The notes beneath the pieces were generated by a model that saw only the letters and a list, made by a program, of their open reading frames with translations, had not been told where the DNA came from and made no database searches. From assembly GCA_029834535.1 (NCBI GenBank), contig JAQMWT010000664.1, forward strand, positions 62,001-126,000: 64,000 bases of DNA, given 5' to 3'. Position numbers and translations under genes: made by a program. This document shows positions 4,991 through 59,900 of this stretch, in pieces. This DNA comes from Chrysophaeum taylorii (lineage: Eukaryota > Sar > Pelagophyceae > Pelagomonadales > Pelagomonadaceae). Position 1 is the stretch's first letter; every line of letters starts with the position of its first letter.

Positions 4991-5006
4991 AGGGGACGGT
5001 AGATTG

Positions 5007-5049: not shown

Positions 5050-5079
5050 CATGACTTCCCCCTAACCTCTGCTCAATCT

Positions 5080-8454: not shown

Positions 8455-8575
8455 AACGTTCGTAAAAATATTATTACGAAATTCCTTTACTTTACCTATT
8501 TTACTTTACTTTTATCATTACTTTACAGTCGTTTCAAAATGATGGTAAAGTAATTTTTTTACATTACAGTACCAC
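8455..8575. repeat. AT-rich repeat on the left of the hAT relic
   Basis: AT-rich block with CTTTAC/GTAAAG units. It shares 'TACGAA(A)TTCCTTTAC', 'GGTAAAG' and 'TTACATTAC' in the same order with 9,990-10,065 on the other side of the hAT relic. Possible element terminus or an independent AT-rich repeat pair. Confidence 0.45.
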
Positions 8576-8904
8576 ACGTCACCCATGTCGACGAGTCGAG
8601 TTGAGCGACGTCGCGGGGTCTTGTCGACGCGATGTCTGCGTTACGGACCCCCCCGCATGCTTGACGGCCAGGCCGAGTCCCGAGGAGGAGCAGTCAGTCG
8701 CCCCCGATGGCATGCCACACCAACGTGGAGAATGAGATCGAGGGTGGTACTGATGACGACGGTGAGGAGGAGGACGGCAACGCCTTCATGCGACTGCGCC
8801 GGCGTCCGACTCAGATGAACGATGACGACAAAAAGCCCGACTTCTGGACTGAAGCCATTCCGAAGAGCAGCAGCAACCTGATTATTTATTATTCGTAGGA
8901 GGCG

Positions 8905-37766: not shown

Positions 37767-38171
37767 ATTCTCGTTTTGCCGAGGATCTCGTGCTCGCACA
37801 TCGGTGTGCGCGATTTGCTCGGCTCATCGTGGCCGTGGTGTAACTCTGACTCGTCGAGCCTTTCGCGCCTCAATCTCTGTTTGCACGAGGGTGACTCTCA
37901 GCTGGAGCTTCTGTCGCGCTTCGCCTCTGCAACTTCGACGCGCTGGCGCTGGCTCCGTCGAACAGTCGATGGCTGCGCTCGAGGATCGCGGTGCCGAGCA
38001 GTGCCGCGGCACGGCGTGGTGCCGGCGCCAAGTGGTAGCCGCGTCGCACGTTGCAAGAGCGAAGCGTTTGATCCTGCTGCCTGGCGCCCTCGATCGCAGA
38101 TTCTGGAAAACACATCATCGATGTCTTGTTGCGAACTTAATGAGTCGAGTTTTCGCCCACAGGCATATCGT

Positions 38172-41516: not shown

Positions 41517-42721
41517 TGTCCTCGATCGAAATTGAAGATAGCAAGCTTTCGCAAAAACTCGATGCCTTCAGTGGTGAGCGACATCTTTTTCACCAATGGA
41601 CCCGGCGCCTGGAAAACATGATCATTTCCACCGGTGATCGCATTATCTTGACCAATGACACTTGGACTAGCATTTCCACCTCTGGCTGCTCTGAAGAAGA
41701 ATTTGGTCTTAAGCAGCAACGCTGGTAATCTGCACTCTTTATGGCGCTACCAATGCATGATACTGATCGTGCGGATATCCGTGAAAACCGCGATATGAAC
41801 TTCACACGGCTTTACAAGCGCATTACTGATGTTTACATGGGCCATGGAGGTCGTGTCGCTCAGTCTGCAATTGCCTCACTGCATTCCTTGGTGTGCAACA
41901 ATATCGACGAACTTGAGTCTTTTCTTAACAAGTTCATCACTGGTGTTCAAGTTGCTCGGCATCATCAAGATTTCCCTGACACACTTGCATTGCAATTGCT
42001 TCAGACGAAAATCCCCGACTCGATCTTGTCTAAGGATCTCATTGCACTTGATCCTAAACTGCGCACATATGATGGTTTCGTTGATCGCCTCCACAGTAAA
42101 GTTTTTGATTATCTTCAGACCAAGTCTGCGCTTGTCCATGCTACGTTCCGTGAAAGTCCCCGTCACCGTGAACGTTCCAACTTTTACGGTCGTACCAACC
42201 ATCCTTCTGATAAATACCTTCATCGCCTCAATGCTTTGCGCTCCCAACAACGTTCTAGCCCTCGCCCATCTTTTCGAACATCTTTCCGTAACCGACCTTC
42301 ATCTTCATTTTCCCGTGGTTTCCATCGCAAGCGCTCACGCCATACTGATCTTTGTCACTTTTGTGGTATTCCTGGCCATCACCAGAAAGATTGTCATAAG
42401 CGCCAGCGCTATTTGCTCTCACAAGCCACCGTCCGCCCTCGGCATCAATATCAATACCCACGTCGGTCAACTCCCCAATACCTACCTCGGTCCAATCCCC
42501 AATACCCACCTCGGCCCCATCCACCCTTCTACCAAAATTATCTTTCCGCCCCATTCCACTCTTGCCTCCATCTCAATCCTCTCCGCCGCTTCTTGCGTTG
42601 CCACCCTCCACCACACCCTCTGTCCCGCCTTCCACCGCTGTCTCCCTTCCTGACCCATCTCTTTCTGCACCCACATATCCGTCTTTCAATTTCCATCTTG
42701 GTTCCGGCACTGCTCACTTAA
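41517..42721 (+). pseudogene. Element D Gag
   Basis: Starts 'MSSIEIEDSKLSQKLDAF' at 41,517. It has a copia gag (UBN2-like) body with 'HQWTRRLENMI', a frameshift at ~41,728, then a 326-aa frame from 41,741. A zinc knuckle C-x2-C-x4-H-x4-C, 'CHFCGIPGHHQKDC', lies at about residues 204-217 of that frame and is preceded by an Arg/Ser-rich stretch. It would package element RNA. The C-terminal Pro/His-rich tail is partly out of frame. Confidence 0.8.
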
Positions 42722-44147
42722 CGTTTCCTTCAATTGGTCCTCTTGACAATCGTGGTCTTCCTTCTCCTGCACCCACTCTTTCCGCCCCTCATGGTATCCA
42801 TGTCGCGTTCCCGCATACCCTCATTTCTCCTGGCCTTGGTGACAAACGGATTCTTTCGGATCATGCCCTTGAGCAAGTTGGTTACGATTGCCACACCATT
42901 CAGGCCGTTGGCCCTGCTTATCCGCAACGTATTTTACGTCACCGCCGAACGCATCGCGTTATTCCCCTGCTTCGTCGCTGTGGTCTTCTTTTGATCGTCT
43001 GTTGGATCGGCAATACGACCGCTGCGCCCTACGCGGACTTCGTTTCACCTTTTGTGGCATTTTCTTCTTGCCCCCGTTTCCATGACCCTTGTGCGTTTCC
43101 CGCTGTGTCTCAACGCACTCAACTTACCTTCGACCTTTGGCATGCTCGTCTTGGTCATTACAGTCCCTCTTACATCCGCCGGTTGTCTTATATCGCTGTT
43201 GGCGCACCGCTTTTCCCGAGCTCCGCGTCTCTTTCTTTTTATCCTGCTTGTGCTCTCGGTAAAATGCATGCTGCGCATGTTGGCCAACGTAAAGCCCATG
43301 CTTCCGCTTCCACTTCGCTTCCTGCCTCCGAGCCTTTGTCTCGTCCACGTGCCGTTGCGCCCTACCTTATTATCCACGCCGATCTCATGTTTGCGGGCGT
43401 CCCATCCTTCATATATCAAGATCGCGCGATCCTCACGTTTGTCGATGATCATACGCGCCGCCGCACGCGTTACTTTGCTCCACGACACGATGCACTTACG
43501 AACGCTCGTCAACTCGAACTTTTTCTGTCTACCGTGGTTCGCCCATTCGGATATCGCATTGCCCTCATCTACACCGATAGCGACCGCTCTCTTAAAGGCC
43601 AATTCGGATTCGCATTGCCCTCATCTACACCGATCGTGACCGCTCTCTTATGGGCCAATTCGAAACCTTCTGTCTGGGCAACAACATCGCTCTCAAACGT
43701 GCTCCTGCAGCTCAGTCCAAAACTTCACAGGCGCACGCTTTTTCCGGTGTTGTGGAACGCTCTCATCGCGCAACTGCTGATATTACTCGCACTCTTTTGG
43801 TACATGCGCACCGTCCACCTGATTTTTGGCGTTGGGCCATGGAAACGGCTGACTTCATCTCTGAGCGCATGCCAAATGCCTCTAATCCTGGATATATGAC
43901 GCCATATGAAATGCTACATGAAACTCTCCCCCGTGTTGATTTTCTTCGTGTTTGGGGCTGTCCTGCTGCAATTCTTAATGGCGACAAATGGCCTACCAAA
44001 GCTATAACCGGTATCTTCCTTGGGTATCCCTCTGCAGGCCCTGGATATCGCATATTGCTTCAACGCCCCACTGGTCCTGTCATCCACACCTCGATTGATG
44101 TTGTTTTTGACGAAAATTTCGCTCTGCGTAAGTCACTGTCCACTTAA
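42562..44147 (+). pseudogene. Element D protease remnant and integrase
   Basis: The 445-aa frame 42,562-43,899 includes a GAG-pre-integrase block 'LWHARLGHYSPSYIRRL' and the integrase start with 'LIIHADLMFAG' (first Asp) and 'LIYTDSDRSL' (second Asp). It then loses frame at a ~57-bp imperfect duplication (43,549-43,660). The correct frame resumes at 43,650-44,147 with 'VVERSHRAT' (Glu) and the C-terminal 'WGCPAAIL' and 'GYPSAGPGYR'. Upstream, 42,700-42,860 may hold the protease, but no clear D-S/T-G is readable. Confidence 0.75.
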
Positions 44148-44165
44148 CCCCTTCCTCCGTCTCTA

Positions 44166-45775
44166 GTGGATTCTCGTTTTCCTGACTTATTTTATTACGA
44201 CCCTCGTTTATCTTCCGCTGTTGCGCCCTTGTCTTCTGTTTTTGATGCTCAGGAGCCGGCCTTATCGGGACTGATCACCCCTGAAACAATATCTCAACCG
44301 TCACTGGACAATACACAACCGTTACCGGACAATACGAAACGTGCACCATTACGTCGAGCCAGACGGGGCCGACCGCGCAAAGTCGACCAAAGCGCATTAC
44401 AAAAACCAACAAACTTTCATACTGGCGTTTGTCAACAACGCAATGTCGATTCTGTTTCCTCTGTCGCTTCTGTTTCCTCCTGTCACTCTTTGTATGTCTC
44501 TTATGTTAGCTTTCGTTTGTTCGTTCATTATGTCTTCCTTCCCCTTTGTTTAGCTAACACCCTTGTTGATCCCCATGCACAGTTTTCTGCTTCCGAAGAA
44601 ACCCTCAGTATTCATGGACGAAACTACTATTACACCACCATTTACGTGAAGAGCTCAGACCAATCCTGAGCGTCCTGGCTGGTTGCAAGCCATCGCTAAA
44701 GAGTATACTCCCTTGGTCAGCTTGGTTGCTGGGATGTTGTTCGCCTTCCTTCGACTTTCCAACATTTGCCCTCAAGTGGATCCTCCGCAAGAGCGGACTC
44801 TGGCCGCTTCAAATCGTACAAGGCTCGCCTCGTCGTCCGCGGTTACACCCAGGTTCACGGCATTGATTATCATGACACCTACGCTGCCGGTTGCTAACAT
44901 CGTCACGATCCGTTTCTTTCTAACCTTTGTCGCTGTTCATGACTGGGATTTGCACAAGTTGGATGTCAGCTCCGCTTTTATCAAGCTCCCATTGACGAAG
45001 ACATCTATGTCTGGCCACCCGAAGGCGCTCCTCGCCAACCCACCGATGGTTCCAAATCGTTTACAAGCTCGTCGCTCTTGGTATGGTTGCAAACAAGCTT
45101 GTCGCAAGGTGGCTTTATTTGGAACGGCCTTCTCAATGATTGTGGCTTCGTCCGCGGATCTGGTGACACTTGCAATTACAAGCTCGTGCTCAATTCTACC
45201 GTTGTTCTACGTCTCGTTCTGGTCGTTGATGATCTTCTTGTGGCGCACCCTCGTCATTGCATTGGCCATTACAAGCGACTTTCCTCCGTTTCCGCGATTT
45301 CACTGACGTCAATGAACTTGATCTCACCTCTTACGTTGGTCTTCGCATTACGCGTGATCGCCCTCGGAGAACCTCACTCTTGACCAATCCCATGCTATCC
45401 GTGAAATCCTTACCGAACATCGCTTCATCAACAGTAAACCCGAACTCACTCCCGCTCCCAAAGGTGTTCATCTTTCTGCGGCTGATTGTCCTACTCCTGG
45501 TTGTCCAGATCACTTGGCTTCTCAAACTTTTTGATGACTTTGATCTCCCTCGTCACACGGTCCCAATGTATGTCGATAATAGCACCACCGTCACCCAAGT
45601 CCGTCTCCAATGTCTCACACGGCGCACCCGCCATATTGACATTCGCTTAGTACCGCCGAATATCATCGCAACCACATCATTGATCTCCAACACATTCCCG
45701 CGCAATCTTGCGATATTTTCACCCGCAGTACGGAAGCTCCTTCCTTCCTCCGGCTTGCTCTTTTACCTCACTTCG
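44166..45775 (+). pseudogene. Element D RT with RNase H mostly deleted
   Basis: RT is recognisable piecemeal ('HDWDLHKLDVSSAFI', 'RRSWYGCKQAC', 'VVDDLLVAHP' at ~45,222) through many one-base deletions. At ~45,513 the sequence jumps from 'GCPDH' directly to 'WLLKLFDDFDLPRHTV', removing about 400 bp that in element B (2,969-3,367) contain the first RNase H Asp and the Glu. The tail 'MYVDNSTTVTQV' remains. Confidence 0.75.
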
Positions 45776-45844
45776 TGATCTTCGCCCTGATCTCTTGTTT
45801 CTTTCTTGCCACAATGCCTCTATTGACTTCCCTCAAAGGCCTCT

Positions 45845-46035
45845 GTGAGCGTCTCACTTACCCTTTTCCTTTTCTTCCTTTTTCTTTCCAGCACCTGTGT
45901 GAGGACCCACCACCCGCCTTTTCTTTCTTTTCCAGCACCTGTGTGAGGAAGCATGACACTTACCCCTGCACCACGTATCAGTATCCTACGTCATTCTCTT
46001 ATCGCTAGTCTAACGCCTCATTCCAGTTGCGTCAC
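45845..46035 (+). repeat. Element D pre-LTR unit and 3' LTR
   Basis: TGTGAGCGTCTCACTTACCC and a second TGTGAGGACCC unit, each ending in a pyrimidine tract plus CAGCACC, precede the LTR (45,942-46,035). Confidence 0.75.
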
Positions 46036-46065
46036 GCCGTTCGTCTATGTGGCGTCATGGTTTCT

Positions 46066-46312
46066 ATAAACTAACTGTGACTTCAGACATATCCGAGCAT
46101 GGGAGCCAGGCCGGACAGGCAGGAGCCGATCCGGAATCACAGAGGAAAATCACGCAGTTGGGGCAGAGGCGAGGGACGAGGACTCGTTGATGACGGACCG
46201 CCACTGCGCGCGGTCTTGTGCGAAGTCGTGCAAAAGCGTCGCAGGCCGCAAACGTGTTGGTCCACGAACAATCGACCTGTCCGACGGCGTTCTGCCCAAC
46301 CGAGCGAACACC
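46066..46312. repeat. Dispersed ~240-bp repeat, copy 2
   Basis: Second copy of the repeat at 27,161-27,410, same orientation. It sits between element D and element E. Confidence 0.85.
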
Positions 46313-47730
46313 CATTTCTATAAAAATAATTAAATACTCATATTTGAGGAAAGGTTGAAGAGTTCAATGTGTTTGAGCAAGGGTTGAAAAATTAAATGTT
46401 CAATGAAGCTTGAAACCGTTCAACGGTCCAAAAATTGCAAGAATCGATGGAACGCAAAAACCCTCTTACAGCCCACAGCATTAGCCCTACGTCACGTCAT
46501 TCGCAACGCACGATAACCCCCATCAACAGCCCCAGCGTTAGCCATTTGTGTTCCATGACTTGAAGAGATGGTAGAAAAAAACCAGTGGGCGCCAGGTGCG
46601 TACCGTCAGGTACAGGGCTTTTCTGTTTAATTAACAGAGCGTTCCTCGTTGTCAGTGTAAAAGCTTGGGACTTAAAGTCCTAGATTTAGGGCAGACTAAT
46701 CCTGCAACATAGTAGTAGCGGCTTGGAACAAGCGGAATGGTGCGTACTCGCCTAAGACTTGCAGTATCGACAGTACCTTGGAAGGGTCAAATCTGCTGGG
46801 TTCCAGAACGCACACCTGTTGCGCACCACACTGGAACTCCTTTACTCCTTTCCACCGCTTTTTTCTACTAGGGCTTCTCTCCGCAATACGGCCCCCTTTC
46901 CTTCCTACCGCTTTATAGCGAAACTTTCATGACGTGCACATCAAGCGCGGTCTGGGTTTTAACATGGAGTGGGCATCAGGTGCGTAAATCAGGCGCGTTT
47001 TCTGTTTAATTGTAGGCTTCGTTCCTCATTGTCAGTGTAAACGGCTTGCCGAGGACTTAACGTCCTTAAAGATTTAGGGCTGCAATCTACCTTAACGTAG
47101 TAGCATGAGCAAGCGGAATGGTCTACACGCCTAAGACTGCACCAGTTCTCTGGCGCCCAGAGAGTCAAAGATGCCACAGGTTATAGTCCAGATGGCAGGT
47201 GTGTCAGCCCAACGTTGTGCGTATAATGGGCGATCAGTTTACGCCTGATCACAAGTACAACGCGCTGTAACATTTTGACGGTGGTCTACTGTACATGTTT
47301 GTTGTGTGACAGTGCGAGCCCACAGTAATTGGTTACAGAGCAAACGCTTAACAGCGGTAAGTCACCTGGGAAACAATCCCGTCTCATCGTGAACGTCTGG
47401 AAGGGTAATTCGGGAATGAAAGGTTTGTTCCCTATATCCTCAGAACACGACAGGCGGCATCTAGAACTACACGAGGTTAAGTGTATAGTGCTACATACCT
47501 CGGGCGCGCTAGACCATGATGATGAGCGTAGGCACAAATCAGAGGACTATTATTGTAGAAAGGAAGAAGAGGGTAAGGAAGAGATCACGTTCTCAACGGA
47601 CGGATAAGGGTAAGAGGCAGCAGATTTCTACCCTCAGATGTCTTAGAGATGTCTTAAGCGCAAGGTGCGACTGTAGAGCATCTGAAAGATGATGATGAAA
47701 AGAAAAAGAAAAAAGGAAGGACAGTCTTGA
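46313..47730. other. AT-richer region downstream of element E, with a ~200-bp direct repeat
   Basis: 46,585-46,790 and 46,969-47,160 are imperfect direct repeats: 'GGGC(G)CCAGGTGCGTA', 'TTTTCTGTTTAATT', 'GTTCCTC.TTGTCAGTGTAAA', 'GACTTAA', 'AGATTTAGGGC', 'AACATAGTAGTAG/AACGTAGTAGCA', 'CAAGCGGAATGGT', 'CGCCTAAGACT'. They could be part of element E's 3' terminal region (an LTR derivative), but no partner was found near 56.9 kb. No ORF of note. Confidence 0.55.
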
Positions 47731-47733
47731 TGG

Positions 47734-49479
47734 TCACAGAACATACAGAAGCATCAAGGTGCAGAAGGGTTTTAGGATTTGGACTTGGACTTGGGGGAGC
47801 TGAGAGTCGCTTTGACCCTTTTGAACATAACATTTAAAAACACAGATACAACAGACAGTGATTAGGATTATCATCGTCAGCTTCTGCTGTAAGGTGGTGA
47901 ACACCAATAGCTGAACGTGGGTGCCAAGAGAAGGGTGAGTGCAAGTAGATTTCAGTACGGATGGCGATAGAAGTCTAGTTGAAAGGTGTCCAGTTGGTTT
48001 CCAAAAAAGTTGGACTTGGCGAACGAAGAACGAAGATAGAAAATTGGCAGATTCACATGAGCGGACGGAATGCTCTGAAGCATGAGACGGCATGCGTAGA
48101 TGAAGGAGGTGATCGTCCGGGAGGAGTGATTGGTAGCATGTTGTTATGAGCGGTGAGTCTTAAGCGAGACAACAGCTCTGGATCTTGTACAGTGTATAGT
48201 AACACGTGGGTGTTCCTGTAGGAGGAAGAGCCGGTTCTCCAGGGTGGTGTTTCCTGGGTTGGTCGACTTGTTGCAGGCACAAGAGTCGGAATCAGCAAGC
48301 GAAGCAGAAGGCGTAGGTAAGTGGTGGCGAAGATATCCAGAATAGCGTCTAGCGTGGAGTGTAGTAGTTTTAACGACGTTCGGTCAACGTTAAAAAGTGC
48401 AGGAAGCCTTAATGTTCTGCCTGAACATAAGGTGGCGACCAGACATTACATTCCGGAGTGATGGTTCTGTATCATCAGAGGATGATGCGGTTGTTAAGAT
48501 GTTGTACACGCGATCGGATAACAGTTGAATCACATGGTGGTATTTGATGGGCTTGACATAGCCTGAGTTTTACGAGCTTGTGTTCGCTCGAGCGTTACAA
48601 GAAAGTTAAGATGCTCCAGGTGCATCTGAGTAATAAGCCGAAGATCCAGTGCCAATGGTAGTTGAGTGGTGAGTCTGTGGCTGCATCGGTTACTGAACTA
48701 AATGAGCAAGCGTAGAATGTTGCGTTAGATTGCTGGTCAAGAGATGATGCTCCTTTGGCAAATGATACGTGCGTATGATGGTTGCGCGTATATGACCAGC
48801 TGAGCACCATCACAGGAGGGTTGGAAGGAAGGCATTACGTGCACATACGTTAGGTTGTATGGGCGCCTGATCGGTGTTGTGACAAGCACAACAAATGTTA
48901 GTGGATAGTTGAGATGGGAATATGACCATTCTTCTTGTGGTCATCTGTGTTAAGGTGACTCTTCAGTGGGGAGTTCACTAGTGTGCTGTGACTTCGATTA
49001 TGGCAGGTAGAAGCAAGGGCGTAGGATGACAGGATGAAACGTTCACGTTTGGGGCCTCTGTAGCAGCCTAGAAGTAATAGCAGGAGCAGCTTCCCAAATG
49101 TAGTAATGGGTAGGCGCATGGATATAAGGTCGTAAGTTCCACAAACAGTAAAGAGTCAGCAGATTCATATCGAGTTGAGTGCCGTAAGACGCTCGCATAA
49201 CAGAAGAGAGAAAGGCCGTGGCAGGGGTACGGAAGCTCTCAGAGCAGAGGTCCTCGTTCAATCAGGGCAAAATCCATGTTGAGGCCATCGCTGGTGTCGG
49301 TGAGACAGGCGGCAGCCTGGGAAGTAGCAAGGAGTGACCGTGGTTATGGTTGTCGCTTTTGAAACAACTGAGGGAGATGCCACGGCCACGGGAGTGTCAA
49401 GAAGACATGAACAACACTCGCCCGTGTACAAAAAAGTGGGCAAGAGAAGGTAAGGCCAGGGATAGTTTAACGACGTGCG
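47734..49479 (-). pseudogene. Element E post-RNase H region with hydrophobic ORFs
   Basis: About 1.7 kb beyond RNase H, more than ordinary copia elements have. After the fourth SLNY motif (49,462-49,473) come short ORFs at 49,258-49,479, 49,043-49,261, 48,898-49,119 (with a poly-Leu segment), 48,595-48,813, 48,053-48,400 (carrying the fifth motif at 48,365-48,376) and 47,734-48,093. The last has a strong membrane-like segment, 'MIILITVCCICVFKCYV'. Whether this is a decayed extra gene, for example envelope-like, or 3' untranslated sequence cannot be told. Confidence 0.45.
48365..48386 (-). other. SLNY-like motif, site 5
   Basis: Encodes V-D-R-T-S-L-K-L. DNA core GACCGAACGTCGTTAAAACT on the minus strand; one extra A relative to site 4. 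The frame stays open into the 48,053-48,298 ORF. Confidence 0.65.
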
Positions 49480-49484
49480 GTCAC
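49462..49484 (-). other. SLNY motif, site 4 (after RNase H)
   Basis: Encodes S-D-R-T-S-L-N-Y. DNA core GACCGCACGTCGTTAAACT on the minus strand, one base shorter than sites 1-3 between GACCG and GTCG. In frame with the RNase H tail. Confidence 0.8.
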
Positions 49485-50390
49485 TAGAGTTAGGTATCTT
49501 CAATCCTGTAAGGTTGTCGTCAGAGGCATGATGCATACCGAGTAGAGAACGAAAAGTGGAGAACTCAGCCGCAAGTTGTTTTGTATAGCCATCCGCCACG
49601 TTCAGCTTGCCGGGAACATAATGGATTCGTATTTTCTGAAGCGATATGTACTCACGAATCTTAAACATCAGTCGACAGTGCCTTGGATCGAGAGGACCCA
49701 TCTGGGTTATTAGAGGTGTGAAACAGCATTGTCAGACAAAGAGGTAGCTTCTGATGAAGCGCATATCAGCAATTGGGTTGTCATTGTCATCGAAGTCAAC
49801 AGGGTCAGCTGTGTTCTCACCATTAGCATTGTTGACGTAGAAGGTGGGGTTGACGACAAAGGAGTTCCAACAGCAGCTTGCGTAGCCAAACAGCTTCATC
49901 AGCACAAATACTGAGGGCAATCAACTCAGCTTCGTGAGTTGAGCAGGAGACAATCGGTTGGTTTGCTTTTCCAACCAATAAGGCAGTTGAAAAGATAGAA
50001 GACAAACCCGGTGGTAGATTTCCATCTTCCTGTGCTAAGGAAGGGGCATTGTCAGCGTCAACCATGGCAACTAAGGGGTCAAACTGTCCAGTAGATACAT
50101 CCTGCGGTTGGTAGTCGACCACAGTGGATAGATCAATTCGATTAGCGGAGACAGTGCGAAGGTGAGCTTCAATGGCATTACCTTTAGGTGAAACCAGAGG
50201 CGAAGTGAGCGGTTTTCCGGCTTCTTGAGGTAGCGAAGCAAATGCTCTGCATTTGGACGTGAACATATGTGGGTGCATGCATACCACGCGAACATCTGCC
50301 CAAGGCTTGCGAAGTCAGGTCTGCAGGCAACTTGCATGAACACCAGCTTGCCAAGGAGGGTGGCAAAGTGCGAATTGATGTACAACTCTG
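49480..50390 (-). pseudogene. Element E RNase H
   Basis: Spread over three frames. 50,071-50,385 has 'CRPDFASLGQMFAWY' and 'HLLRYLKKPENRSLRLWF'. 49,823-50,287 has 'MVDADNAPSL' (Asp) and 'CSTHEAELIALSICADEAVWL' in two parts (the STxEAEL Glu block). 49,732-49,920 and 49,500-49,701 have 'TFYVNNANGENTADPVD', 'FKIREYISLQKIRIHYVPG' and 'NVADGYTKQL', the copia RNase H tail. The 'DN' of the third catalytic position reads 'NN'. Confidence 0.7.
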
Positions 50391-51278
50391 TTTCAGGTGA
50401 GTGCCATCTTTATACTTGAAGGACGATGACATAGGATATTTAAGCGGGGTCAGTTGCTGCAAGACTGGGTGATCAGCGAAGAGTTCATCCAGCTTGGCTT
50501 GCACATCCAGAGAAATGGAGCCGTCAGATGTGCGACACACACGCATGCCTAGGAGGGCATGGACAGGTTCAAACTGCTCTACAGCATACCGTTTGTGGAG
50601 GGCATCCTGTAATTCAGTACGAAGAGGGTCGTCATTGGACACAATAACAATGTCGTCTACAGACAGACTGCATACGACGAACTTAGCATGTGCGGATACT
50701 CGAGCATATAGGCAAGAGTCCGAATACAGGCGTTTGTAACCAAGGCTACGGAAGAAGCCGTCTATCTCTTTGTTCCAAAGGGTGTCGATAAGCTTGATGC
50801 CGTCTGGTAATTGAACATAGACATTGGCATCGATGTCAGACTGAACGAAGGCGTTCGGGACGTCTGCATGGTAGACAGGCAATTGCTTGTATGCTGCAAT
50901 AGCTAGTAGTACCCGGATTGCGGTCATAGTGGCCATGGGGCTGAAGGTACCAAAGAAATCGGCGCCAAGAGATGCTAGGAAGCCACGTAGTACGAGGCGA
51001 GCCTTGTGCTTAACGTATTTGCCTGCAGAGTCTGTTTTAATCTTCAGCACCATCTTGCTGTCAATAGGACGAGAAACACCGTCGGGTAAGGAAAGTTTGA
51101 AGCAGCCAAAGCGGATAATGTCGTGGAGTTCCTTGGCGATGGCCTTGAGGTAGGCGTGCCTGTTTTCAGGCGACAAACCGTGGAGGCACTTAAGTTTATA
51201 TTCGTCAATGGGAACGTCCGCTTCTTGGACCTTATATTCGTCAGGACCAACAGTGGCTGGTGAATTATAGTTTAGCGA
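50184..51278 (-). CDS. Element E reverse transcriptase
   Basis: The frame is open from the SLNY motif (51,278); the first Met-based ORF starts at 51,176 and gives 330 aa. RVT_2 blocks: 'AIAKELHDII', 'DSKMVLKIK', 'KHKARLVLRGF', 'FSPMATMTAIRVLLAIA', 'YHADVPNAFVQSDIDANVYV' and the active site 'CSLSVDDIVIVSND'. Between 'VQLPDGIK' and 'LWNKEIDGFFRSLGY' a short piece is missing relative to the family, where the 'YGLKQAPR' block should be, so this copy may be internally deleted. Frame is lost near 50,390 inside the linker to RNase H. Confidence 0.8.
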   Translation of the reverse strand, partial: SLNYNSPATVGPDEYKVQEADVPIDEYKLKCLHGLSPENRHAYLKAIAKELHDIIRFGCFKLSLPDGVSRPIDSKMVLKIKTDSAGKYVKHKARLVLRGFLASLGADFFGTFSPMATMTAIRVLLAIAAYKQLPVYHADVPNAFVQSDIDANVYVQLPDGIKLIDTLWNKEIDGFFRSLGYKRLYSDSCLYARVSAHAKFVVCSLSVDDIVIVSNDDPLRTELQDALHKRYAVEQFEPVHALLGMRVCRTSDGSISLDVQAKLDELFADHPVLQQLTPLKYPMSSSFKYKDGTHLKQSCTSIRTLPPSLASWCSCKLPADLTSQALGRCSRGMHAPTYVHVQMQSICFATSRSRKTAHFASGFT

Positions 51279-51290
51279 CGTTGCGGTCGA
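51267..51290 (-). other. SLNY motif, site 3 (integrase region/RT border)
   Basis: Encodes S-T-A-T-S-L-N-Y. DNA core GACCGCAACGTCGCTAAACT on the minus strand. In the frame of the RT ORF, about 34 codons before its first Met. Confidence 0.8.
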
Positions 51291-51865
51291 GGCAGTGTGC
51301 GCAACTTCGGGATAAGCGGAAACAGCGTCGGTAGGAGTAGTAGGGGCAGATTCCAGTTGGATATGGTAGTAGGGTCGGTACGTAAGACCTGGGTGATAAA
51401 CTCTGTAGAGACCAGAAGGTATTCCTCCAAGTCAGCCAGAGATGCAGAAGTAGCGCCAAACTCGGGTGAGTTGTGATCAATAAAGCTGGTCGGCGCCAGG
51501 TACGTAAGTGCATATTGTAAGGAAGAAGTGCCGAAGGCAGCAGCGTGTTCAGTGAACGCAGATAAAAGGGGCTGAGGGATAGGGCACGTAGGTGAACCAT
51601 CAGCAGTTAAAAAGGTTACAGCTGGGATGCTGGATGCGCACTTGGCGTGGGCGAAGTAACCATCGACGTGCGGGTAGCGGGCAAGTAAGTCAGTACGCAA
51701 CGGGAGAAGGAGACGAGCTAACAACGAATGTTCCCCCTCTGAGCAGATAGCAGACCAGAGGATACCACCACGGAGATGAAGGGCGGAGAGGGAACGTAAG
51801 AAAGTGGTGGCGAAGATCCCAGCGGAAATCGGCGAGCTTGCCACCAGCGGCTTCGTAAGCACCAA
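51272..51865 (-). pseudogene. Element E unidentified domain between integrase and RT (197 aa)
   Basis: Open frame of protein-like composition ('LLARYPHVDGYFAHAK', 'SLADLEEYLLVSTEFITQVL'), not found in B, C or D. I do not recognise it. It ends where the third SLNY motif (51,267-51,278) begins in the RT frame. Confidence 0.45.
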
Positions 51866-52571
51866 TAGTAGACGCTTGTAACCGGGCTCGGATAGTTTTC
51901 ATGGAAGTGGCCTTGCGAGTGTTAGGCTGTTTGGAACCTGGGACAAGAATGAGGTCATCTTGTGCAAAAAGATCTGTGTAAGAAGGAAGCAAGGGCGGCG
52001 GTGACATAGAGCCAGAATCGTCGGCGGTAGCGTCAGAAGAGGGAGAAGAGGCCGAAGTAGGGGACGAAGAAGGAGGAGCTGAAGGAGGTGGGGAGTGCCC
52101 CCTCTGAGCATGAGAAGTCCGCCCCCTCTGAATGACATGGTCTTGGATAGTGGTGTGGGGTGTGAGCGAGAAAGGCGCGGAAGGAGCGTGTGGCGGAGGA
52201 GCTAGTTCAGGATCAGGAGTAGGATGCTGCAACATGTAGAGGAATTGCAGCTTGGACGAAACACGGATTTGTCCGTTTTCAGGGTTGAGGACGACGTCAG
52301 CGAGATGGTCGACGCGTGGGGAGACGAGCGGGTTTTGTGCGTTGGCGCAACAGAGATACAGATATTTGCGGCGGCACGGTTCCCACTTGTGGTGTTCATG
52401 GGGCTCCAATAGGAGGTAACATTCAGCGCCAAAATCTTGAGCATATCGTGTTGGGGAGTGCTGAGTTGGTTGTAGAGTAGCTGTTGCGGACTCAGAATAG
52501 CATGATGAATGCGCTCGAGCGTGGCGTTCGGGAGAAGGTTGTAGCTTTGAACGGTGTGTATCACCGCCCAT
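51690..52571 (-). pseudogene. Element E integrase C-terminal domain and Pro/Ser linker
   Basis: 'FGAECYLLLEPHEHHKWEPCRRKYLYL' and 'VVLNPENGQIRVSSKLQFL' fit the copia integrase C-terminal pattern (G..C...., K..P....G..LG, P.TG.I..S..V.F). Homology leaves the 926-aa frame near 52,430 and enters this one, so a frameshift lies there. A Pro/Ser-rich linker and 'SYTDLFAQDD' follow. Confidence 0.65.
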
Positions 52572-54982
52572 GGGAACATGATAGCAGGTTCGACGATCTT
52601 GGCGCCACGATAGTGAGCATTAAGGAGAGAACGAAGGCGAGTTGAGGAGGCGGAGGCGATGAAACCGATGGCAGACTCAACTTCAAAGTTAAAGTGGTGC
52701 ATGTATGGCGGGAAGGCAATGAGTTGAATGCCCTTATCGACGCGGTACGGGGAGGTAATGTGCTGGCTAAAGTAAGGCTTGAATGCATCGGAGTAGAGGG
52801 TGCGCATGTGCACATTGAGTTGTGTACGACAGAAGTCATACACAAAATCCAGAGCTTGAGTGAACTCCGTGGCGTTGGTGGTGCGTGTAAAGTACACCAA
52901 GAGAAATTTCGAAATGAGTTCCTTGAAGACGATGATATGTGTGAAGCCTCCCCATTCGGATGGGATGGTCACATAGCCGCCGTCGCACGCCCAGACTTCA
53001 CCGGCTTTGTGGGTTTGCTCAAAAGAAGGTTTGGTCGCATTGAAATGCTTGTGCGGGTGGCGCTTGTTGTGTGCGATGCAGTCGGTGCATAAGTCGCGAT
53101 ATGGTATGTCAGAAGCAGAGAATCCAGGGCGAGCAAGTACGTTGGGGGCCTTGGCAGCGACGTTGTCGGGGCAGTGATGCACCCGGTGAAAGCGATTAGC
53201 ACGTTCTTTGGCATTGAGATATTCGGTGGATCCGTGTGCGAGGGACTTACGAGGAATTGGATGAGCGGGAATGTGCCGTTTGCGCCGAACATCGAACTTG
53301 AGTTCGGTGTCTAAGGCAGTGGAAGGCGGTGCGTCGTCATCCTGGTGCACAGCAGGGTCACTTGGAGGTGCATCCTCATTATCACGAGTAGCGAGAGTAT
53401 CTTCGTAGGACGACGATATATAGTTTAACGACATTTCGGTCAAGCAGTTGCTGGAAATAGACATCATAAAAGATTGTGCCAAAGACAAGGTATCTGTGCT
53501 GCACGTGGTGGAGGCTTGGTCAACGGTCATGAAATTGGATACATAGGATTTCTTCGTCACGGCAGCAGTATGTTGGAAGGTAGGGTCCAACATAAGGGAT
53601 TTAATATCGGCGACGATGAGCGAAAGGTGCTTGTACAGGGTGCTATACGTACCGGCAGGCAGAGCATTGCTGAGCATGTCACAGCAAAGGTCATGGCGTA
53701 GAGACAAGAGGAAAGATTCCTGTTGTTTGGTGTGGTTGTTAGCACGAATCAACTCCGGTCGAGTGGGGTAGCGTAATTTCCCGTTGCGAGGGTCGAGTAA
53801 AATAATATTGGCATACCCTCGGACGGTTGGCAATGGAGCAAGCATTGAGTGGATTTTAGAGCCGAGCTTGCGGTCACTTCCACGAAGGTACCCTATATAG
53901 CGACTATGAGATAGGTGATGATCTTCCAGAGCAAAAAGAGAATCCTTGTAATCGAAAGAGTTGTCGGTGGCCTTGTAGGTAAGGCAGCCAGGCATCACGA
54001 GAGCGCATCTGGACACGAGGTTTTGTATGGCGGTGCCATAGGTGGTAGCGGAGCCAACTTGGGGAAGGGCTTGGACTATCCACAAGTAACCCATAAACGG
54101 CTCCAGATATATGGACCTGTCCCGGTCGCGGGGGATGTCGGAAGCAGTGAACGTATACGTGCCCCCAAAGGCGTTGATGGGGGTCTTTTGGTTGGTGGTG
54201 GCGTTCTCTATGGTGAGGTTGCCGTCGGAATGGTGGCCACCAGTTAAGAAGTAGGAGTTGTGTGATGTTGATGAGGTTGTAAGTAATAACCTGTGTGACG
54301 GTTGGTTAGTTTCGAAAACGGTTATGTAATAGGACACAGGAGTGGGCGAGTTAGTATGTAAGCTTGCAAACACGTTATAGAGGATTGTAAAAATCTCGAC
54401 GTGTATAGGATGTGTTGCATAGGGCAATGGCTCCATAGAGGAGCGTTTAAAGCACAACTGATGGTAAGTACACTCGGGTTGAACAGAGTGAGTACGTTGC
54501 TCGTGAGCCTGTTGTGAGTGAAGGCGAAGTAGTAACATATTGAGGGATTCAAGGTCAGCCATAGTAAGCTGAGCAGAACCTGTGCGAGAGTAAGGTGCAA
54601 ACGTTTTAGGAACGGGGATATATGGAGGATCGGGGAACACCCGGATCCAGTCTTTGGATACGTGTTTAGGTAGCCAAAGGCGCTTGGGAATAGCTTGTAG
54701 ATCATCCACGATCTTTAGGAAGGGGCGTGGATGGAGGATAGGCCACGACAATATTTTAATTGGTCCAGTAGAATATCTGCGGGCGAAGCATATCCACCTT
54801 TCTCTAGATTGGTAGTCGCCACATAGGTAGGTCGGGAACCTATCAACAACATCGACACAGTTATCAAGTGTAGTATGGATAGGGTTGGCCACTGTGATGT
54901 GGTCTTGGTGACAGTACTTATGCGGAGGCGTCATCTCAGCCAGTAGTACCAAGGGCTGGAGTAGTTTGATGACAGACAGCAT
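52202..54982 (-). CDS. Element E methyltransferase C-terminal half plus integrase (926-aa ORF)
   Basis: The open frame extends upstream of the first Met with 'SEDLHSLLDDSLFDSM', joining the methyltransferase. Motif VI is 'VLLAEMTPP' (E16), motif VIII 'YQSRERW' (Q58-R62), a motif IX-like 'RYPTRPELI' lies near residue 402 and motif X 'DMLSNALPAG' near 435-442. 'LTEMSLNY' (residues 514-521) then marks the border to integrase. Integrase shows H-x3-H and C-x2-C ('HRVHH', 'CTDC', ~590-630), then the DDE triad 'WACDGGY' (~667), 'LYSDAF' (~731) and 'FEVESAIG' (~767). The integrase C-terminus continues in another frame. Motif X and the QxRxR block make a chance match to C5 methyltransferases unlikely. 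Confidence 0.8.
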   Translation of the reverse strand: MLSVIKLLQPLVLLAEMTPPHKYCHQDHITVANPIHTTLDNCVDVVDRFPTYLCGDYQSRERWICFARRYSTGPIKILSWPILHPRPFLKIVDDLQAIPKRLWLPKHVSKDWIRVFPDPPYIPVPKTFAPYSRTGSAQLTMADLESLNMLLLRLHSQQAHEQRTHSVQPECTYHQLCFKRSSMEPLPYATHPIHVEIFTILYNVFASLHTNSPTPVSYYITVFETNQPSHRLLLTTSSTSHNSYFLTGGHHSDGNLTIENATTNQKTPINAFGGTYTFTASDIPRDRDRSIYLEPFMGYLWIVQALPQVGSATTYGTAIQNLVSRCALVMPGCLTYKATDNSFDYKDSLFALEDHHLSHSRYIGYLRGSDRKLGSKIHSMLAPLPTVRGYANIILLDPRNGKLRYPTRPELIRANNHTKQQESFLLSLRHDLCCDMLSNALPAGTYSTLYKHLSLIVADIKSLMLDPTFQHTAAVTKKSYVSNFMTVDQASTTCSTDTLSLAQSFMMSISSNCLTEMSLNYISSSYEDTLATRDNEDAPPSDPAVHQDDDAPPSTALDTELKFDVRRKRHIPAHPIPRKSLAHGSTEYLNAKERANRFHRVHHCPDNVAAKAPNVLARPGFSASDIPYRDLCTDCIAHNKRHPHKHFNATKPSFEQTHKAGEVWACDGGYVTIPSEWGGFTHIIVFKELISKFLLVYFTRTTNATEFTQALDFVYDFCRTQLNVHMRTLYSDAFKPYFSQHITSPYRVDKGIQLIAFPPYMHHFNFEVESAIGFIASASSTRLRSLLNAHYRGAKIVEPAIMFPWAVIHTVQSYNLLPNATLERIHHAILSPQQLLYNQLSTPQHDMLKILALNVTSYWSPMNTTSGNRAAANICISVAPTHKTRSSPHASTISLTSSSTLKTDKSVFRPSCNSSTCCSILLLILN
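53420..53443 (-). other. SLNY motif, site 2 (methyltransferase/integrase border)
   Basis: Encodes L-T-E-M-S-L-N-Y. DNA core GACCGAAATGTCGTTAAACT on the minus strand. In frame with the 926-aa ORF, after motif X and before the integrase zinc region. Confidence 0.8.
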
Positions 54983-55359
54983 GCTGTCGAAAAGAGAATC
55001 GTCCAGCAGGCTGTGTAAGTCTTCTGACTTTGTTGTTTTAGTAAATTCCTGTTTGTGCAGGGAGGAGTGATCTCAATTATATCACTATAGAATGTGCGCC
55101 TTTCCTCGGGTGAGATTAGGTGAAGATGGTTAATAAAGGCGGGGAGAGATTCAAATAATAGTACAGTAGGAAAACGGTGGCGTAACATACGAACAAGCGC
55201 ATCATCAGACTCAACAACAACTTTTGCATTGATATTTAAGCCTAAGTCATTAGTGGCTTGAGACAGGAACGCCGGAGTTGACAAACCAGAACAAAGTAAC
55301 ATGACAGAGGGTTTGCGGAGATTGGACTCTTGTGAGAGAAAAACTGGCCGTGCGAGTAG
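54931..55359 (-). pseudogene. Element E C5-cytosine methyltransferase, N-terminal half (motifs I-IV)
   Basis: Same frame as the protease, after the TGA. 'VMLLCSGLSTPAFL' is motif I (SAM binding, F-x-G-x-G variant), 'KVVVESDD' is motif II, and 'LRHRFPTV' precedes 'SDIIEITPPCTNR', motif IV with the catalytic Cys (PPC at 55,058-55,066). Just after PPC the homology moves into the frame of the 926-aa ORF, so one base has been gained or lost around 55,040-55,055, unless a ribosomal shift occurs. The domain would methylate cytosine C5 in DNA. Confidence 0.75.
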
Positions 55360-56547
55360 TCAACTTAATGGCTGCGTATTTTGCTGAACAAATTTGTTCT
55401 GTTTCCGAAGATTGAGAACCAAAGGGCGAATCCACGGCCGATCTGGTAAAACTCGTTGGAGTAGGTAATTGTAGTATGCCAGTAGCTCCCTGTTTTCATG
55501 GTATCGCTTGAGGGGAAATGCAAGGGAGCGAAGTTCCAGCCGCTTGTCGCGCGCGATGTTGTAAGTGATACAAGGGAGAGCGGGTAAATTAGCAGCGACA
55601 TAGTGTATGGGTATACGTACATCTTTGTCTATGCGGCTCGTGACAGCGCTGAGCTTTGGCTCAGCTCGATCGTTGAACACGGTGGTAAGATTGGTCTGGT
55701 TCCATTCGAGCATGCTCAGGATAGCGAGATGTCGGTCATGCACTGGTTGAAGACATAAAGCGAAGTCGATCTTAACGTAGCCAACTTGTGGATGATCTGG
55801 TAGGGGAATAACGATGTTGCGTGTTAACATCATGTGTGATGCCCGTTGTTGTCCTGTTGCCGTCTGAATAACAATCGGAGCGTATGTAGAGTCCAACGGA
55901 ATTATATGATTGGGTATTGCGAAATCGTAGGTGGACATCAATGAGATGGTAGCACAAGAGTCAAAATATAGAAAAGAGCAATGTGGAGGGACACTGTTTA
56001 CCTTCATGTAGTTGGTGAGGAAGGCGTTTTCCGAATGTGGGCAAGTAGTGGAGAGACTGGCGGTAAAGAAGCTCTTCAGCAATAACAGATTCGTTGGAAT
56101 AATGATCGGTTGAACAGGTGGTGATGGCTCGTCAGCCTCATCAGCCATGCCGTGTTTTTCGTCAAATGACGATAGAGAGGTGTGATCGGCACCCCTTTTG
56201 GTTTCGGCTTGTGATGGTAGATTGAGGGCAGATTGGACCTGTGAAGATAGCGAGGACAATAATGCTGGTGGTAAAGCCGAGATGGCGGAAGCGGTAGAGT
56301 GGTTAGACACAGTATTGGAAGGATTACCCTGCGTGTTTGTAGTAGGAGGAGTTGTTGTTGGGGTGGGAGCAGTAACGACAGTCTGATGTTGTGGCTCCAC
56401 GTAGTTTAACGACTTTTCGGTCGAGGATAGATGAACGTCTACATCATAAATGATGTCTTCTGCAAACATGAGCTGTTCGTTTAGACGAAGTAAACTACTG
56501 TTGTCCTCAGTAGATGTTGTTGACAGGATATCGGCTGATTGTAGCAA
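55360..56547 (-). CDS. Element E aspartic protease ORF (395 aa)
   Basis: After a linker with 'STEKSLNY' (residues ~42-49), a retropepsin-like domain shows 'LYFDSCATISLM' (D at ~197), followed by the hydrophobic strands 'NIVIPLPD' and 'HLAILSMLEWNQTNL', the counterpart of the 'ILG.D.L' block of copia proteases. The active-site triplet is D-S-C instead of the usual D-S/T-G, an odd change. The ORF ends in TGA at 55,360-55,362, directly followed by CTA; the same frame continues open into the methyltransferase. It would cut the element's own polyprotein. Confidence 0.65.
   Translation of the reverse strand: MLQSADILSTTSTEDNSSLLRLNEQLMFAEDIIYDVDVHLSSTEKSLNYVEPQHQTVVTAPTPTTTPPTTNTQGNPSNTVSNHSTASAISALPPALLSSLSSQVQSALNLPSQAETKRGADHTSLSSFDEKHGMADEADEPSPPVQPIIIPTNLLLLKSFFTASLSTTCPHSENAFLTNYMKVNSVPPHCSFLYFDSCATISLMSTYDFAIPNHIIPLDSTYAPIVIQTATGQQRASHMMLTRNIVIPLPDHPQVGYVKIDFALCLQPVHDRHLAILSMLEWNQTNLTTVFNDRAEPKLSAVTSRIDKDVRIPIHYVAANLPALPCITYNIARDKRLELRSLAFPLKRYHENRELLAYYNYLLQRVLPDRPWIRPLVLNLRKQNKFVQQNTQPLS
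56401..56424 (-). other. SLNY motif, site 1 (Gag-linker/protease border)
   Basis: Encodes S-S-T-E-K-S-L-N-Y. DNA core GACCGAAAAGTCGTTAAACT on the minus strand. In frame with the protease ORF. Confidence 0.8.
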
Positions 56548-56930
56548 GTCTCAAATAACTTGTTGATATTATGTTGTAGCTGAGCCGTGGTATCATTATC
56601 TGTCACATGCTTCGTGAGTTCGCTACACTGTTCTCGCAGGGTGTTTAAGGTGTGGTTTGTTCGATCTAATAATTTCATGTTAGACCGAGAGGACCTGTCA
56701 AAAGTGCGGGGGTAAATTGGACGGTCATGGGACTGTCCGGCAGTTTTCTTGGTGACGTAAGAATCACCAGGACGATAATACGATAAATCGCTGCGAGAGA
56801 AAGGCTGGCGAGCATCATTAGAGTTACGCAAGCGTCTAGCGTTAAACGTGGAAGATGTACCAGGTTGGGACGAAGTGATGAAGGCGAGTGTGTTAGCAGT
56901 TTGAGTCAGACTTTTGTCCGATGAGTCCAA
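56481..56930 (-). CDS. Element E Gag-like ORF (149 aa)
   Basis: First open frame of element E. The N-terminal two thirds are polar and Ser/Arg-rich. Residues ~90-135 are predicted helical ('LDRTNHTLNTLREQCSELTK'), a probable coiled coil for multimerisation. No CCHC knuckle is visible. It overlaps the next ORF by ~67 bp in another frame, which suits a programmed or accidental frameshift. Much shorter than copia Gag, so probably truncated at its start. Confidence 0.5.
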   Translation of the reverse strand: MDSSDKSLTQTANTLAFITSSQPGTSSTFNARRLRNSNDARQPFSRSDLSYYRPGDSYVTKKTAGQSHDRPIYPRTFDRSSRSNMKLLDRTNHTLNTLREQCSELTKHVTDNDTTAQLQHNINKLFETCYNQPISCQQHLLRTTVVYFV

Positions 56931-56945
56931 AGTAGAAAAATAGGG

Positions 56946-59900
56946 AAGTTATGTTTGATGATTACGAAGGCCTTGACCAGCCTGAGGCGAGAGCGAAGCG
57001 GCATTTTGGTCAGCTTCGTGAACCCGAAGACCCGCTCCTCGTGAGCTTGAGCGAACTGTGCGCAGCCCTTACTACTCTCAAACAGCAAGGTCGCCGTCGG
57101 GTATTATTCGTCGCGGATCATCGAGTTCGCATACATATTTGCCATATCGAGACGTTTGCCGCGAACTCCATCTTCGGCAACGAATTGCTGGTATGAGTCA
57201 TCGCCGGGAACATAGCCAGCTCGATGTGAGCGTCGTGTTTCTGCGGCGTAGCGACTGGCTCATCCGCTGATTCATCGTCATCGCCGAGGTCGAGAAGATC
57301 GTCGTCGGAGTCGGAGTCGGCAGTACGACGTTTCTTCTTATAGGGCAAAGGCTGCGTCGGTTCTGGCTGAAGCGAAGCGAGTCTCTCTGCTGCTTCCTTC
57401 CTCCAAAGCTGCCTCGAACGTGACATCAGTCGCGAGCCTGGCTTGTGCCTGCGGCAGAATCTTCTGGTTGAGCTTGAGCGTTGGATAGCAACAGCATCAA
57501 ATCATCACCGCTTTCGCCGGCGCGCGGCGCAGGTGGCGCCGCTTCTGTTTTTCGACAAGCACCTAACGGAAAGTTTGAATGGACTGGTCAACATCATCCC
57601 GCGGAACGTTGTCTAATTAATTTGCGATTCGGGCCAGTGCTGGTATGCCGTCTTGGGACACGCAGCTCCCGTTTCTCAAGCGACTTGATGCAACGATAAA
57701 CGTAGACTCGCTCCATGTCGGCGGCCACTGGTACGTCGCCTTGGGTCTGGAGAGTGAGTTTCACGGGTGGCTGCACGGCCGCCTCGAGCTGCGAGGTGAC
57801 GCTCCATTCGAAGTCAGTAAATGGCCGAGGAACCTTGCCGAAAGACGCGGAGTAAGAAGCGGACTCGACGGCTCTAGACGGGGTGTCTGTAGTCGCATCT
57901 GTATCAGAACCTAGGCTCTCGTACTGGTCGCGCAACACGTCCTCGCGCAACACGTCCTCTATCTCTAGCGCTGGATATCATCCTTGTTGGCTTTTCTTTG
58001 ACGGACCTCGCCGGTGACAATCTGCGAGGTGGAGAACGGCGACTTGCCTTGGATAATAAATTCGTCGTAGATGGCCGGATACACTGTCCCTTAATTAAAC
58101 GCAGACACCCGCCCCGGGTGTTCGATGGCTCCTTGATTGAATCATCCTTTCATTTGCAAGCCTGCCGAGGACCAGTGTGGCAGCTTGTTGTTGCCGCCCG
58201 GTAGGATGCATCTCATTTGAAACGCGACGCTCTTCTCCGAAACGCCGCCGTCGGTGGACATGCAGGCCAGTGGGCCGTTCGCCACTCCGAAGAACGACTT
58301 GAGAATTGACTCGTACAAGCGAGACTGGCTAGCCACCTCATCGTCGTCGGCATCAGAGACACCCCCTTCGTCCGTCCGTCCTCGGTAGTAGTTCCATCAG
58401 TGGCATGCGGCATTCTCGATAGGCGTTGACGAGGCTCTGAGCAGCCTTCACGCGCTCATCGTTCTCTTTCTTCGTCTTCTCGTACCGCGCCTTCAGACGC
58501 GTAAACGAATGAAATGGCCTCGAACTCCGGCATTCAACCCAGAAAAAACTCGCGCTCGTTGTTGTCGTGGACTTCGTACTCCGGACACGAGATCTTCACC
58601 GCCTCTTTCTGCACTCCGCAGCTCGGAAATTTGTGCTTTGGTTGTTGGTGCTCAACGACAAATGCCTGCCATTCTCAACGACGAATGCCTGCCATGCTCT
58701 TCGACGTTCAGCAGCAGGAGTTCCACCCTTCCACCAGGTGCCAGGCGTGGAAAATTGGTATTCCTTCGAAAAGTCTTCGAACACCACGAGCTTCCTCTGC
58801 GCAGCACTTTCTGAACCCCCGCGCTCCGATGCTGATGTGATGACCGCTTCTTGCTCGCTCTCGAGACAAGGTTAAAGGATTGAGGTCCTTACTATGCATG
58901 GACAGGATCAGGATGAGCGCAACACGGAGAGACGCGACGTTCCCACACCGCAGGCGTCCGCATTTGCTGGGTGTCTGCATCCGCTGGTTCCGCAGGGTGT
59001 CCGCATCCGCAGGTCCCCTGGTCGCGGACACTTGCGGTCACGGTCCAAATCCGCGGATGCGGACACGATCCGCGTCCGTGAGCTTGTTTAAACGCAGCCC
59101 GCCACGCCTGGCTTAAGCACTCGAGCGTCTCTAGGAGATTCAAGGCGACGTAGATTGGATCCGAGTTTCCCTCCAAGACTGACCGTCAGCCAAGACACCC
59201 GCCCAGTCCTCGCTCGAGTTATTTTTCGATCCAGATGTCGTCGGCGACGGGGGCGGCGGCACGTTTTCTTTGATGATCGCCGCGAGCCCGGCTTTATCGT
59301 CGCAACGCGATCCGCGCTTCTTTGCCAACGTCGACGCCTGCTGCTGCTGCGATGAAGGGCCGCAGGAGGCGGGAACGAGGCCGTCGACGAGATCGCGTGC
59401 CCTTCGAGGCGTCGCTCTCGACGATCGAGAGTTTCGGCGGGCGCTTTCGAGAGGGTCTCCAGCCTGGCGGGTCGCTGTCACGCTTCTTCGGGCGGCGACC
59501 CCGCCGGCGCTGCCAACAAGCTGTTTTTCTTGTTCCCGTTGGAGCCCTTGGACATAACGGCGAGAGAAGTGGCGCGTTGGACGGCACGGCCATTTGTCTG
59601 CGAAATTCCTCGAGAGGTGGTCCAGGCATCGGAGTTGAAGAAGCGTGGCCTCCGCGCGTGGCCCTTTCACGTCGTCGTCGTCGTCGTCGTCGTCGTGTCC
59701 AATTGAGTGCTAGCAGTCCACCAAGCGGAAAGCTGGCGAGTGATCGTCCTCTCCGAGACCTGCTGCATATTTTCTCCACGGCGCCGAGATTCGACAGAGC
59801 TCTGTTTTGGCAACCTCCAGGTGCGCGGCCCGCGCCGCAGAGCGTCCCCCATCACCCCTTCATACCCTCGCCAATCGTGTGTCCAAAACGCGAGTCTCCG

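Follow-up and report, generated by a model that had tools for sequence, protein, structure and literature searches.

A C5-cytosine methyltransferase-like module flanked by protease and integrase in two copia families of the pelagophyte Chrysophaeum taylorii

Cytosine methylation is normally directed at transposons; here they are the carriers of a methyltransferase-like module. Known carriers, according to the accessible text of PMC5890265, are long interspersed nuclear elements (LINEs), DIRS elements and Gypsy elements, whose DNA methyltransferases (DNMTs) are able to methylate CG de novo and for which self-methylation has been suggested, while the long terminal repeat (LTR) Copia elements of Symbiodinium are described there as lacking any DNMT domain. 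The DNA considered in this work is a 64-kb window (the whole stretch that was analysed; G000:C664:62001-126000) of Chrysophaeum taylorii, a pelagophyte and thus a stramenopile, which contains a decayed minus-strand copy of a copia retrotransposon, designated family A. Protease and integrase of this family are separated by a C5-methyltransferase-like module, and a second copia family of the same genome, family B, has such a module in the same location, with clear matches to the methyltransferase family PF00145. An earlier note on this DNA had proposed a methyltransferase captured by a copia element at this position, with precedents in dinoflagellates and charophytes; the precedents are correct as far as the available portion of PMC5890265 goes, and the capture itself is upheld by the profile matches of family B, a homology between families A and B that extends over the methyltransferase-integrase junction, the catalytic residues and purifying selection. 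The protease-methyltransferase-integrase arrangement is likely new for copia. Among the papers listed by full-text searches, none deals, judging by title or abstract start, with stramenopile copia elements that bear a methyltransferase, and the available main text of the C. taylorii genome paper (PMC10366177) has no occurrence of 'transpos' or 'repeat'. That 2023 study, of strain NIES-1699, used Nanopore ligation libraries, together with one library that had undergone whole-genome amplification.

Family B shows the arrangement in a single frame. Locus L024 encodes 1952 amino acids without interruption, comprising a protease motif (residue 82, identified by eye), the methyltransferase (PF00145, residues 349-475, E 1.1e-7), the integrase (rve, residues 1016-1110, E 0.0061, below the rve cut-off) and the reverse transcriptase (RT; RVT_2, residues 1686-1933, E 1.6e-38). 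In L019 and L021, methyltransferase and part of the integrase likewise share one frame. PF00145 was matched in six family B loci at 32.1-38.6 bits, above its cut-off of 22, and a seventh open reading frame (ORF; L016), which reaches only the start of the module, gave no PF00145 match; TIGR00675 also matched family B, at 1e-8 to 1.5e-7. A genome search with PF00145, in which 123 of 474 candidates were scored, returned at least 57 places, including 40 in family B (a fetched locus, or no more than 1.5 kb from a family B match), one host DNMT2 gene (L001), one host DNMT5 gene (L002/L009) and 15 that were not placed. The L001 protein is identical to CTAYLR_008533 of C. taylorii. The distance between protease motif (by eye) and HHCC motif is 875 residues in L024 versus 146 in C2, a copia copy without methyltransferase used as a comparison element (window 41741..46500, plus strand, ends approximate). 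Another copia type lacking the module is found at 1-3.3 kb of the window.

In the window copy of family A, whose features all lie on the minus strand, the module spans 53445..55359 and presents motifs I (55279-55302), II (55201-55221), IV (55051-55074), VI (54923-54946), VIII (54794-54820), IX-like (53747-53776) and X (53651-53680), with about 340 residues separating motifs VIII and IX. All the motifs named in the earlier note were recovered from the minus-strand translation in the place and order it gave. Its placement of the whole set in one frame of 926 amino acids applies to motifs VI, VIII, IX and X and to the integrase, while motifs I, II and IV fall in a separate 123-residue ORF (54931-55302); the RT occupies a third frame, and the window copy is a broken relic. 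Other copies are better preserved. The 926-residue frame goes beyond chance: it has at least 56 genome matches including the window, a lower bound with 49 of 2173 candidates scored, and the long ones are 79-98% identical; 15 of these matches span at least 830 residues free of stops. Motif I through integrase is read in a single frame in L031, L034, L035 and L036, four of the eight copies read with the window included. Because methyltransferase motifs adjoin the integrase in these four loci, the notion that the two segments might never be adjacent in other copies does not hold.

Profile comparisons point to a kinship of the module with C5-methyltransferases. A combined profile of both families, searched against PDB sequences, matched 48 at E<=10, of which 43 were C5-methyltransferases (many variants of few proteins) and five were others; the top match was 8yf3 (4.5e-6), with M.HhaI at 1.6e-3 and DNMT1 at 0.02. 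No DNMT3 appeared among these 48, and a DNMT3 origin of the module is not supported by such sequence matches. Each family was also compared separately, profile against profile, with an alignment of 28 DNMT2 relatives: family A alone scored 29.8, the highest of 60 column shuffles reaching 19.2, and family B alone scored 34.8, the highest of its 60 shuffles reaching 25.5. The catalytic Cys of motif IV, Glu of motif VI and Arg of motif VIII are present in 8 of 8 family A copies and 19 of 19 family B copies. Rows with no residue at the site, 7 of the 15 from the A search and 8 of the 27 from the B search, are loci drawn in by the other family and do not enter these counts. In the family B search, whose rows come from both families, 21 of the 23 with a letter at the Asn of motif X retain it.

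Several results weigh against this identification. PF00145 is the sole Pfam family to match the family A module, yet it did so in only two of six copies (the sequence used for L033 lacked motif I, that for L030 motifs I-IV), at E 0.0093 and 0.029, that is 15.9 and 14.2 bits against the cut-off of 22; the other four gave no match, nor did the window copy at E<=1, so that the profile check proposed earlier fails on the window copy, falls short in family A and succeeds in family B. The NCBIfam search gave no match in either of two family A copies, and the TIGR00675 matches of family B are below that model's cut-off. Searched singly against PDB sequences, family A yielded a single chance match, and family B matched only 8yf3, at E 0.35. 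The motifs depart from canonical letters as well: family A has EMT in place of ENV in motif VI, motif I of family B is atypical (Gly in 18 of 19, the stretch being absent from one copy), and motif VIII of family B is without Q. AlphaFold prediction of the module on shallow alignments of 13 and 11 sequences reached predicted local distance difference test (pLDDT) values of 29.7 and 30.2. In a protein collection, neither the A frame (7986 candidates scored) nor the B frame (7992) found a relative at E<=0.001. Among viral contigs, 33 stretches fit a pattern, with no relatives.

That the window copy and four of six relatives went without a Pfam match, and that the fold prediction failed at a pLDDT of about 30, could be taken to mean that the motifs are a chance resemblance in a fast-evolving spacer and that family A has no methyltransferase. 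We consider this hardly credible, as family A is homologous to family B, which matches PF00145 and TIGR00675, and as the column-shuffle control was beaten.

Evolutionary rates indicate that the module has been retained. The ratios of non-synonymous to synonymous substitution (dN/dS) were computed against one reference copy, dropping copies that cover less than half a domain or have dS<=0.03; L018, a locus that also holds an A-like piece, was excluded manually from the family B set. In family B the median dN/dS is 0.15 for the core (17 copies), 0.17 for the motif VIII-X part (14), 0.10 for the integrase (13) and 0.17 for the RT (11 rows, one of them the family A copy L030), while in family A it is 0.22 for the core (7 copies), 0.43 for the VIII-X part (6) and 0.35 for the integrase (7). 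The module is conserved about as well as the neighbouring domains and is under purifying selection; since the values include decay after insertion, active copies may experience stronger selection. The constraint is not specific to catalysis, which again counts against an enzyme: the integrase-RT spacer of family B stands at 0.18 and its protease part at 0.16, and because a spacer is constrained too, dN/dS by itself is no proof of an enzyme.

These values also bear on the idea that catalysis has been lost or changed and that the module plays another part in the particle, such as DNA or RNA binding, bridging protease and integrase, or guiding the integrase to methylated chromatin. The non-canonical letters in motifs I and VIII of family B and in motif VI of family A, the great length of the motif VIII-X part, its median of 0.43 in family A and the constrained spacers would suit such a role, which we regard as unlikely though a serious contender. 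A purely structural module could do without its catalytic residues, so their conservation, namely Cys IV, Glu VI and Arg VIII in all 27 copies with a letter there and the Asn of motif X in 21 of 23 rows, counts against it. Beside this, a diverged relative of family A at L018:8709-9900 is 75-82% identical in the integrase and 48-57% identical at the methyltransferase end, with SLNY kept; the methyltransferase side therefore seems to be the faster-evolving.

The two families separated long ago, their integrases being 24-30% identical (about 26%) and their modules about 20%. Nevertheless, BLASTP of a family A frame against L024 produced one alignment (E 5e-18) that begins at motif IX/X and continues across the spacer to reach the integrase, and hhalign of A against B, with an identity of 21% over 266 columns (E 0.096), held motifs II, IV, VI and VIII in register. 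Homology that crosses the methyltransferase-integrase junction despite integrase identity of about 26% points to a single old capture, with the junction inherited. Separate captures by A and B would fit the low module identity and the hhalign result for the catalytic half alone, which was not significant (E 0.31) and stands against a common origin, but the module sits in the same position in both families, the BLASTP alignment is continuous across the junction and the 266-column alignment keeps the four motifs in register, all of which make independent acquisition quite improbable. A single capture in the common ancestor of A and B is thus the reading adopted below. The retention of the putative enzyme, catalytic residues included, in two families that parted long ago suggests a stable association from which the element benefits.

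In family A, the module is separated from the protease by a TGA codon (55360..55362 in the window copy), which is conserved in 24 of 24 copies while the flanking codons vary; the comparison comprised 28 sequences, of which L042, L043 and L053 could not be aligned and L054 was excluded for its unrelated left flank. The next codon is CTA in 13 copies, the window copy among them, ATG in 6 and another in 5. UGA CUA is a known readthrough context. In unbroken copies the methyltransferase-integrase-RT frame continues in phase after the TGA, and single-step variants between the TGA and the next Met comprise 13 synonymous and 12 other changes, where 27% synonymous would be expected (one-sided p 0.008, uncorrected for shared ancestry). 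Stop-codon readthrough in family A fits this pattern of codons; a point against it is the ATG after the TGA in 6 of 24 copies, which would allow re-initiation instead. Lying behind a conserved TGA, the methyltransferase-integrase-RT part of family A would be made in small amounts.

The borders of the module carry a further recurrent feature. A 24-nucleotide repeat encodes SLNY in the coding frame at the gag/protease border (56401..56412), at the methyltransferase/integrase border (53420..53431, a proposed protease site) and, in the frame of the RT, at the integrase/RT border (51267..51278), with similar neighbouring residues at all three; at the methyltransferase/integrase border SLNY is kept in the diverged L018 despite a different linker. 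A role of the repeat as a DNA signal was considered and is disfavoured, for it encodes SLNY in frame at three borders, which makes a protein border likelier. The SLNY borders pointed out in the earlier note therefore hold at these three positions, while a fourth SLNY-coding stretch (49462..49473) lies downstream of RNase H. Partial copies of the repeat are seen there at window positions 48369-48386 and 49466-49483, of which the latter encodes SLNY in one frame. In the L024 frame of family B, no SLNY was found.

Taking these lines together, we lean, by a modest margin over even chances, towards a module that was captured once and that works as a methyltransferase within Pol, is packaged and methylates the element's own complementary DNA (cDNA) or fresh insertion. 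Following that single capture, the module would be a working DNA methyltransferase produced as part of Pol; in family A, methyltransferase, integrase and RT would be made by readthrough of TGA CTA or by re-initiation, only in small amounts, and the element's protease would cut the methyltransferase from the integrase at SLNY. The methyltransferase would be packaged together with RT and integrase, and from a position in Pol next to the integrase it could gain access to the cDNA ahead of integration or as integration takes place. It might then mark the element's own double-stranded cDNA or fresh insertion, with the result that new copies would be already marked on arrival, and the host DNMT5 could maintain the mark afterwards.

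Base composition offers little in favour of such marking. The CpG observed/expected ratio of family A is 0.95 overall, with 0.85 over the module and 1.13 over the integrase, compared with 1.00-1.09 in 8 chosen family B loci (bases 2101-9600, which takes in flanking DNA of shorter elements), 1.11-1.12 in two copia copies lacking the module and 1.13-1.29 in three other window stretches. The depletion is weak, a small difference in the expected direction; strong methylation-driven decay is not shown, which counts against the proposed self-marking.

The same enzyme might instead act in trans, methylating host DNA, rival elements or viral DNA and thereby silencing competitors or protecting the host cell. 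An antiviral role of retrotransposon accessory methylases has been proposed (PMC6338049, in its accessible part), and both families exist in tens of copies at least, but the location in Pol beside the integrase suggests delivery with the cDNA, and we hold action in trans to be improbable. A broader proposal is that de novo cytosine methylation in C. taylorii comes mainly or solely from the copia elements, which would act on their own cDNA first, with the mark then copied by the host. It arises because, of the 42 placed PF00145 places, just two are host genes: DNMT2, of the transfer RNA type, and DNMT5, which is reported as a maintenance type in Cryptococcus in the available text of PMC9998398. 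Against it, 15 of the at least 57 PF00145 places are unplaced, and DNMT6 is reported in Pelagophyceae in the same available text; we regard it as doubtful, and decidedly so. If true, the element would have captured the writing half of the very system that silences it. As the host seems to have few other methyltransferases, the question of who writes the mark is directly testable. The host DNMT5 gene itself, which includes an SNF2 domain (L009:4968-9899), has a high CpG observed/expected ratio of 1.55.

The remaining parts of the window copy conform to a copia element. By comparison with other copies, the decayed family A copy occupies 47352..56934, where 56934 is the end of its gag-side sequence, the copy being 5'-truncated, and 47352 is the 3' point at which the match to many other family A copies ends; three loci hint at a 3' limit of family A at about 46961. 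The gag end and aspartic protease share an ORF (55363..56547) with the protease motif FDSCATIS at 55942-55965, recognized by eye, the Pfam search of the window copy giving no protease match. The integrase (52430..53185) has an HHCC motif (53069-53185) and a D-D-E region (52667-52996), both by eye, and the rve comparison proposed in the earlier note gave a match, though a weak one (E 0.0013). Downstream are the RT ORF (50184..51176; RVT_2, E 1.6e-32) and an ORF with an RNase H-like end (49823..50287; STHEAELIAL at 49913-49942, by eye). Integrase precedes RT in both the window copy and L024, the protease in both and the RNase H in the window copy being recognized by motif only, and both families are of the Ty1/copia type by their RT, given the RVT_2 matches of the window copy and L024.

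LTRs were sought in both families. No LTR pair at element distance was found for family A, with 40 of 805 candidates scored and the window copy 5'-truncated. Family B has direct LTRs of ~200-210 bp, TAGAGA...TCTCTA, followed by TGGGCACCAGTCCC as a putative primer-binding site, both ends of one insertion not having been seen; in L014, an LTR copy lies behind the RT on the same strand. A 715-bp repeated leader of family B was rejected as the LTR, since its copies in L014 (behind the RT) and L028 end after ~200 bp. Two identical tandem units of 217 bases stand just before gag at L024:1657-2090; self-comparisons of 19 loci and the window stretch show this unit in tandem only in L024. A nested insertion is seen at L019:9345-9901, where the 3' end of a family A element lies inside a family B reverse transcriptase.

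The surroundings of the window copy include a different repeat of about 2.15 kb (56935-59090), which abuts its truncated 5' end and of which copies or parts occur on C454, C44, C386, C63 and C74 and elsewhere on C664. Host genes in the window encode a RAP-domain/FAST-like protein (15525-18164) and a protein kinase whose N-terminal portion is long (37776-39833). Separately, the mitochondrial contig of C. taylorii (G000:C696, 58038 bases) contains a permuted 5S rRNA gene (L037:1685-1785; Rfam mtPerm-5S, 44.5 bits, cut-off 39), located behind the small-subunit rRNA and ahead of rps11-like and rpl2-like ORFs, as judged by eye; the permuted mitochondrial form is mentioned for brown algae in the accessible text of PMC11528492.

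Among described systems, the available text of PMC5890265 provides the nearest parallels. KnitGypsy-Dnmt3 of Klebsormidium nitens resembles families A and B in being of the LTR type and in having a Pol polyprotein that includes a C5-methyltransferase under purifying selection, but it is a Gypsy element of a charophyte host, with a Dnmt3-class enzyme and a DIRS-like repeat arrangement; A and B, in contrast, have a copia RT (RVT_2), a pelagophyte host, direct LTRs (in B) and no DNMT3 in their 48 PDB matches. SymbioDIRS-Dnmt3 and SymbioLINE-Dnmt of Symbiodinium are similar in forming many intronless retroelement copies with a methyltransferase, which in SymbioDIRS-Dnmt3 shares an ORF with the RT as in A and B, but they belong to DIRS (with a tyrosine recombinase) and LINE rather than to copia. 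One sentence of a 2025 paper (PMC12344493, partial text) mentions 'LTR Copia' with DNMT3 in streptophytes and dinoflagellates, the same superfamily as A and B; it cites the 2018 paper PMC5890265, whose accessible text says Gypsy (for the streptophyte element), DIRS and LINE. The host's own DNMT5 (L009) and DNMT2 (L001) are members of the same C5-methyltransferase superfamily, and the DNMT2 alignment matches both families over the motifs, but these are genes outside elements and DNMT5 has an SNF2 domain. A copia carrier in a stramenopile suggests that transposons and methyltransferases have become associated in one more superfamily and one more host group.

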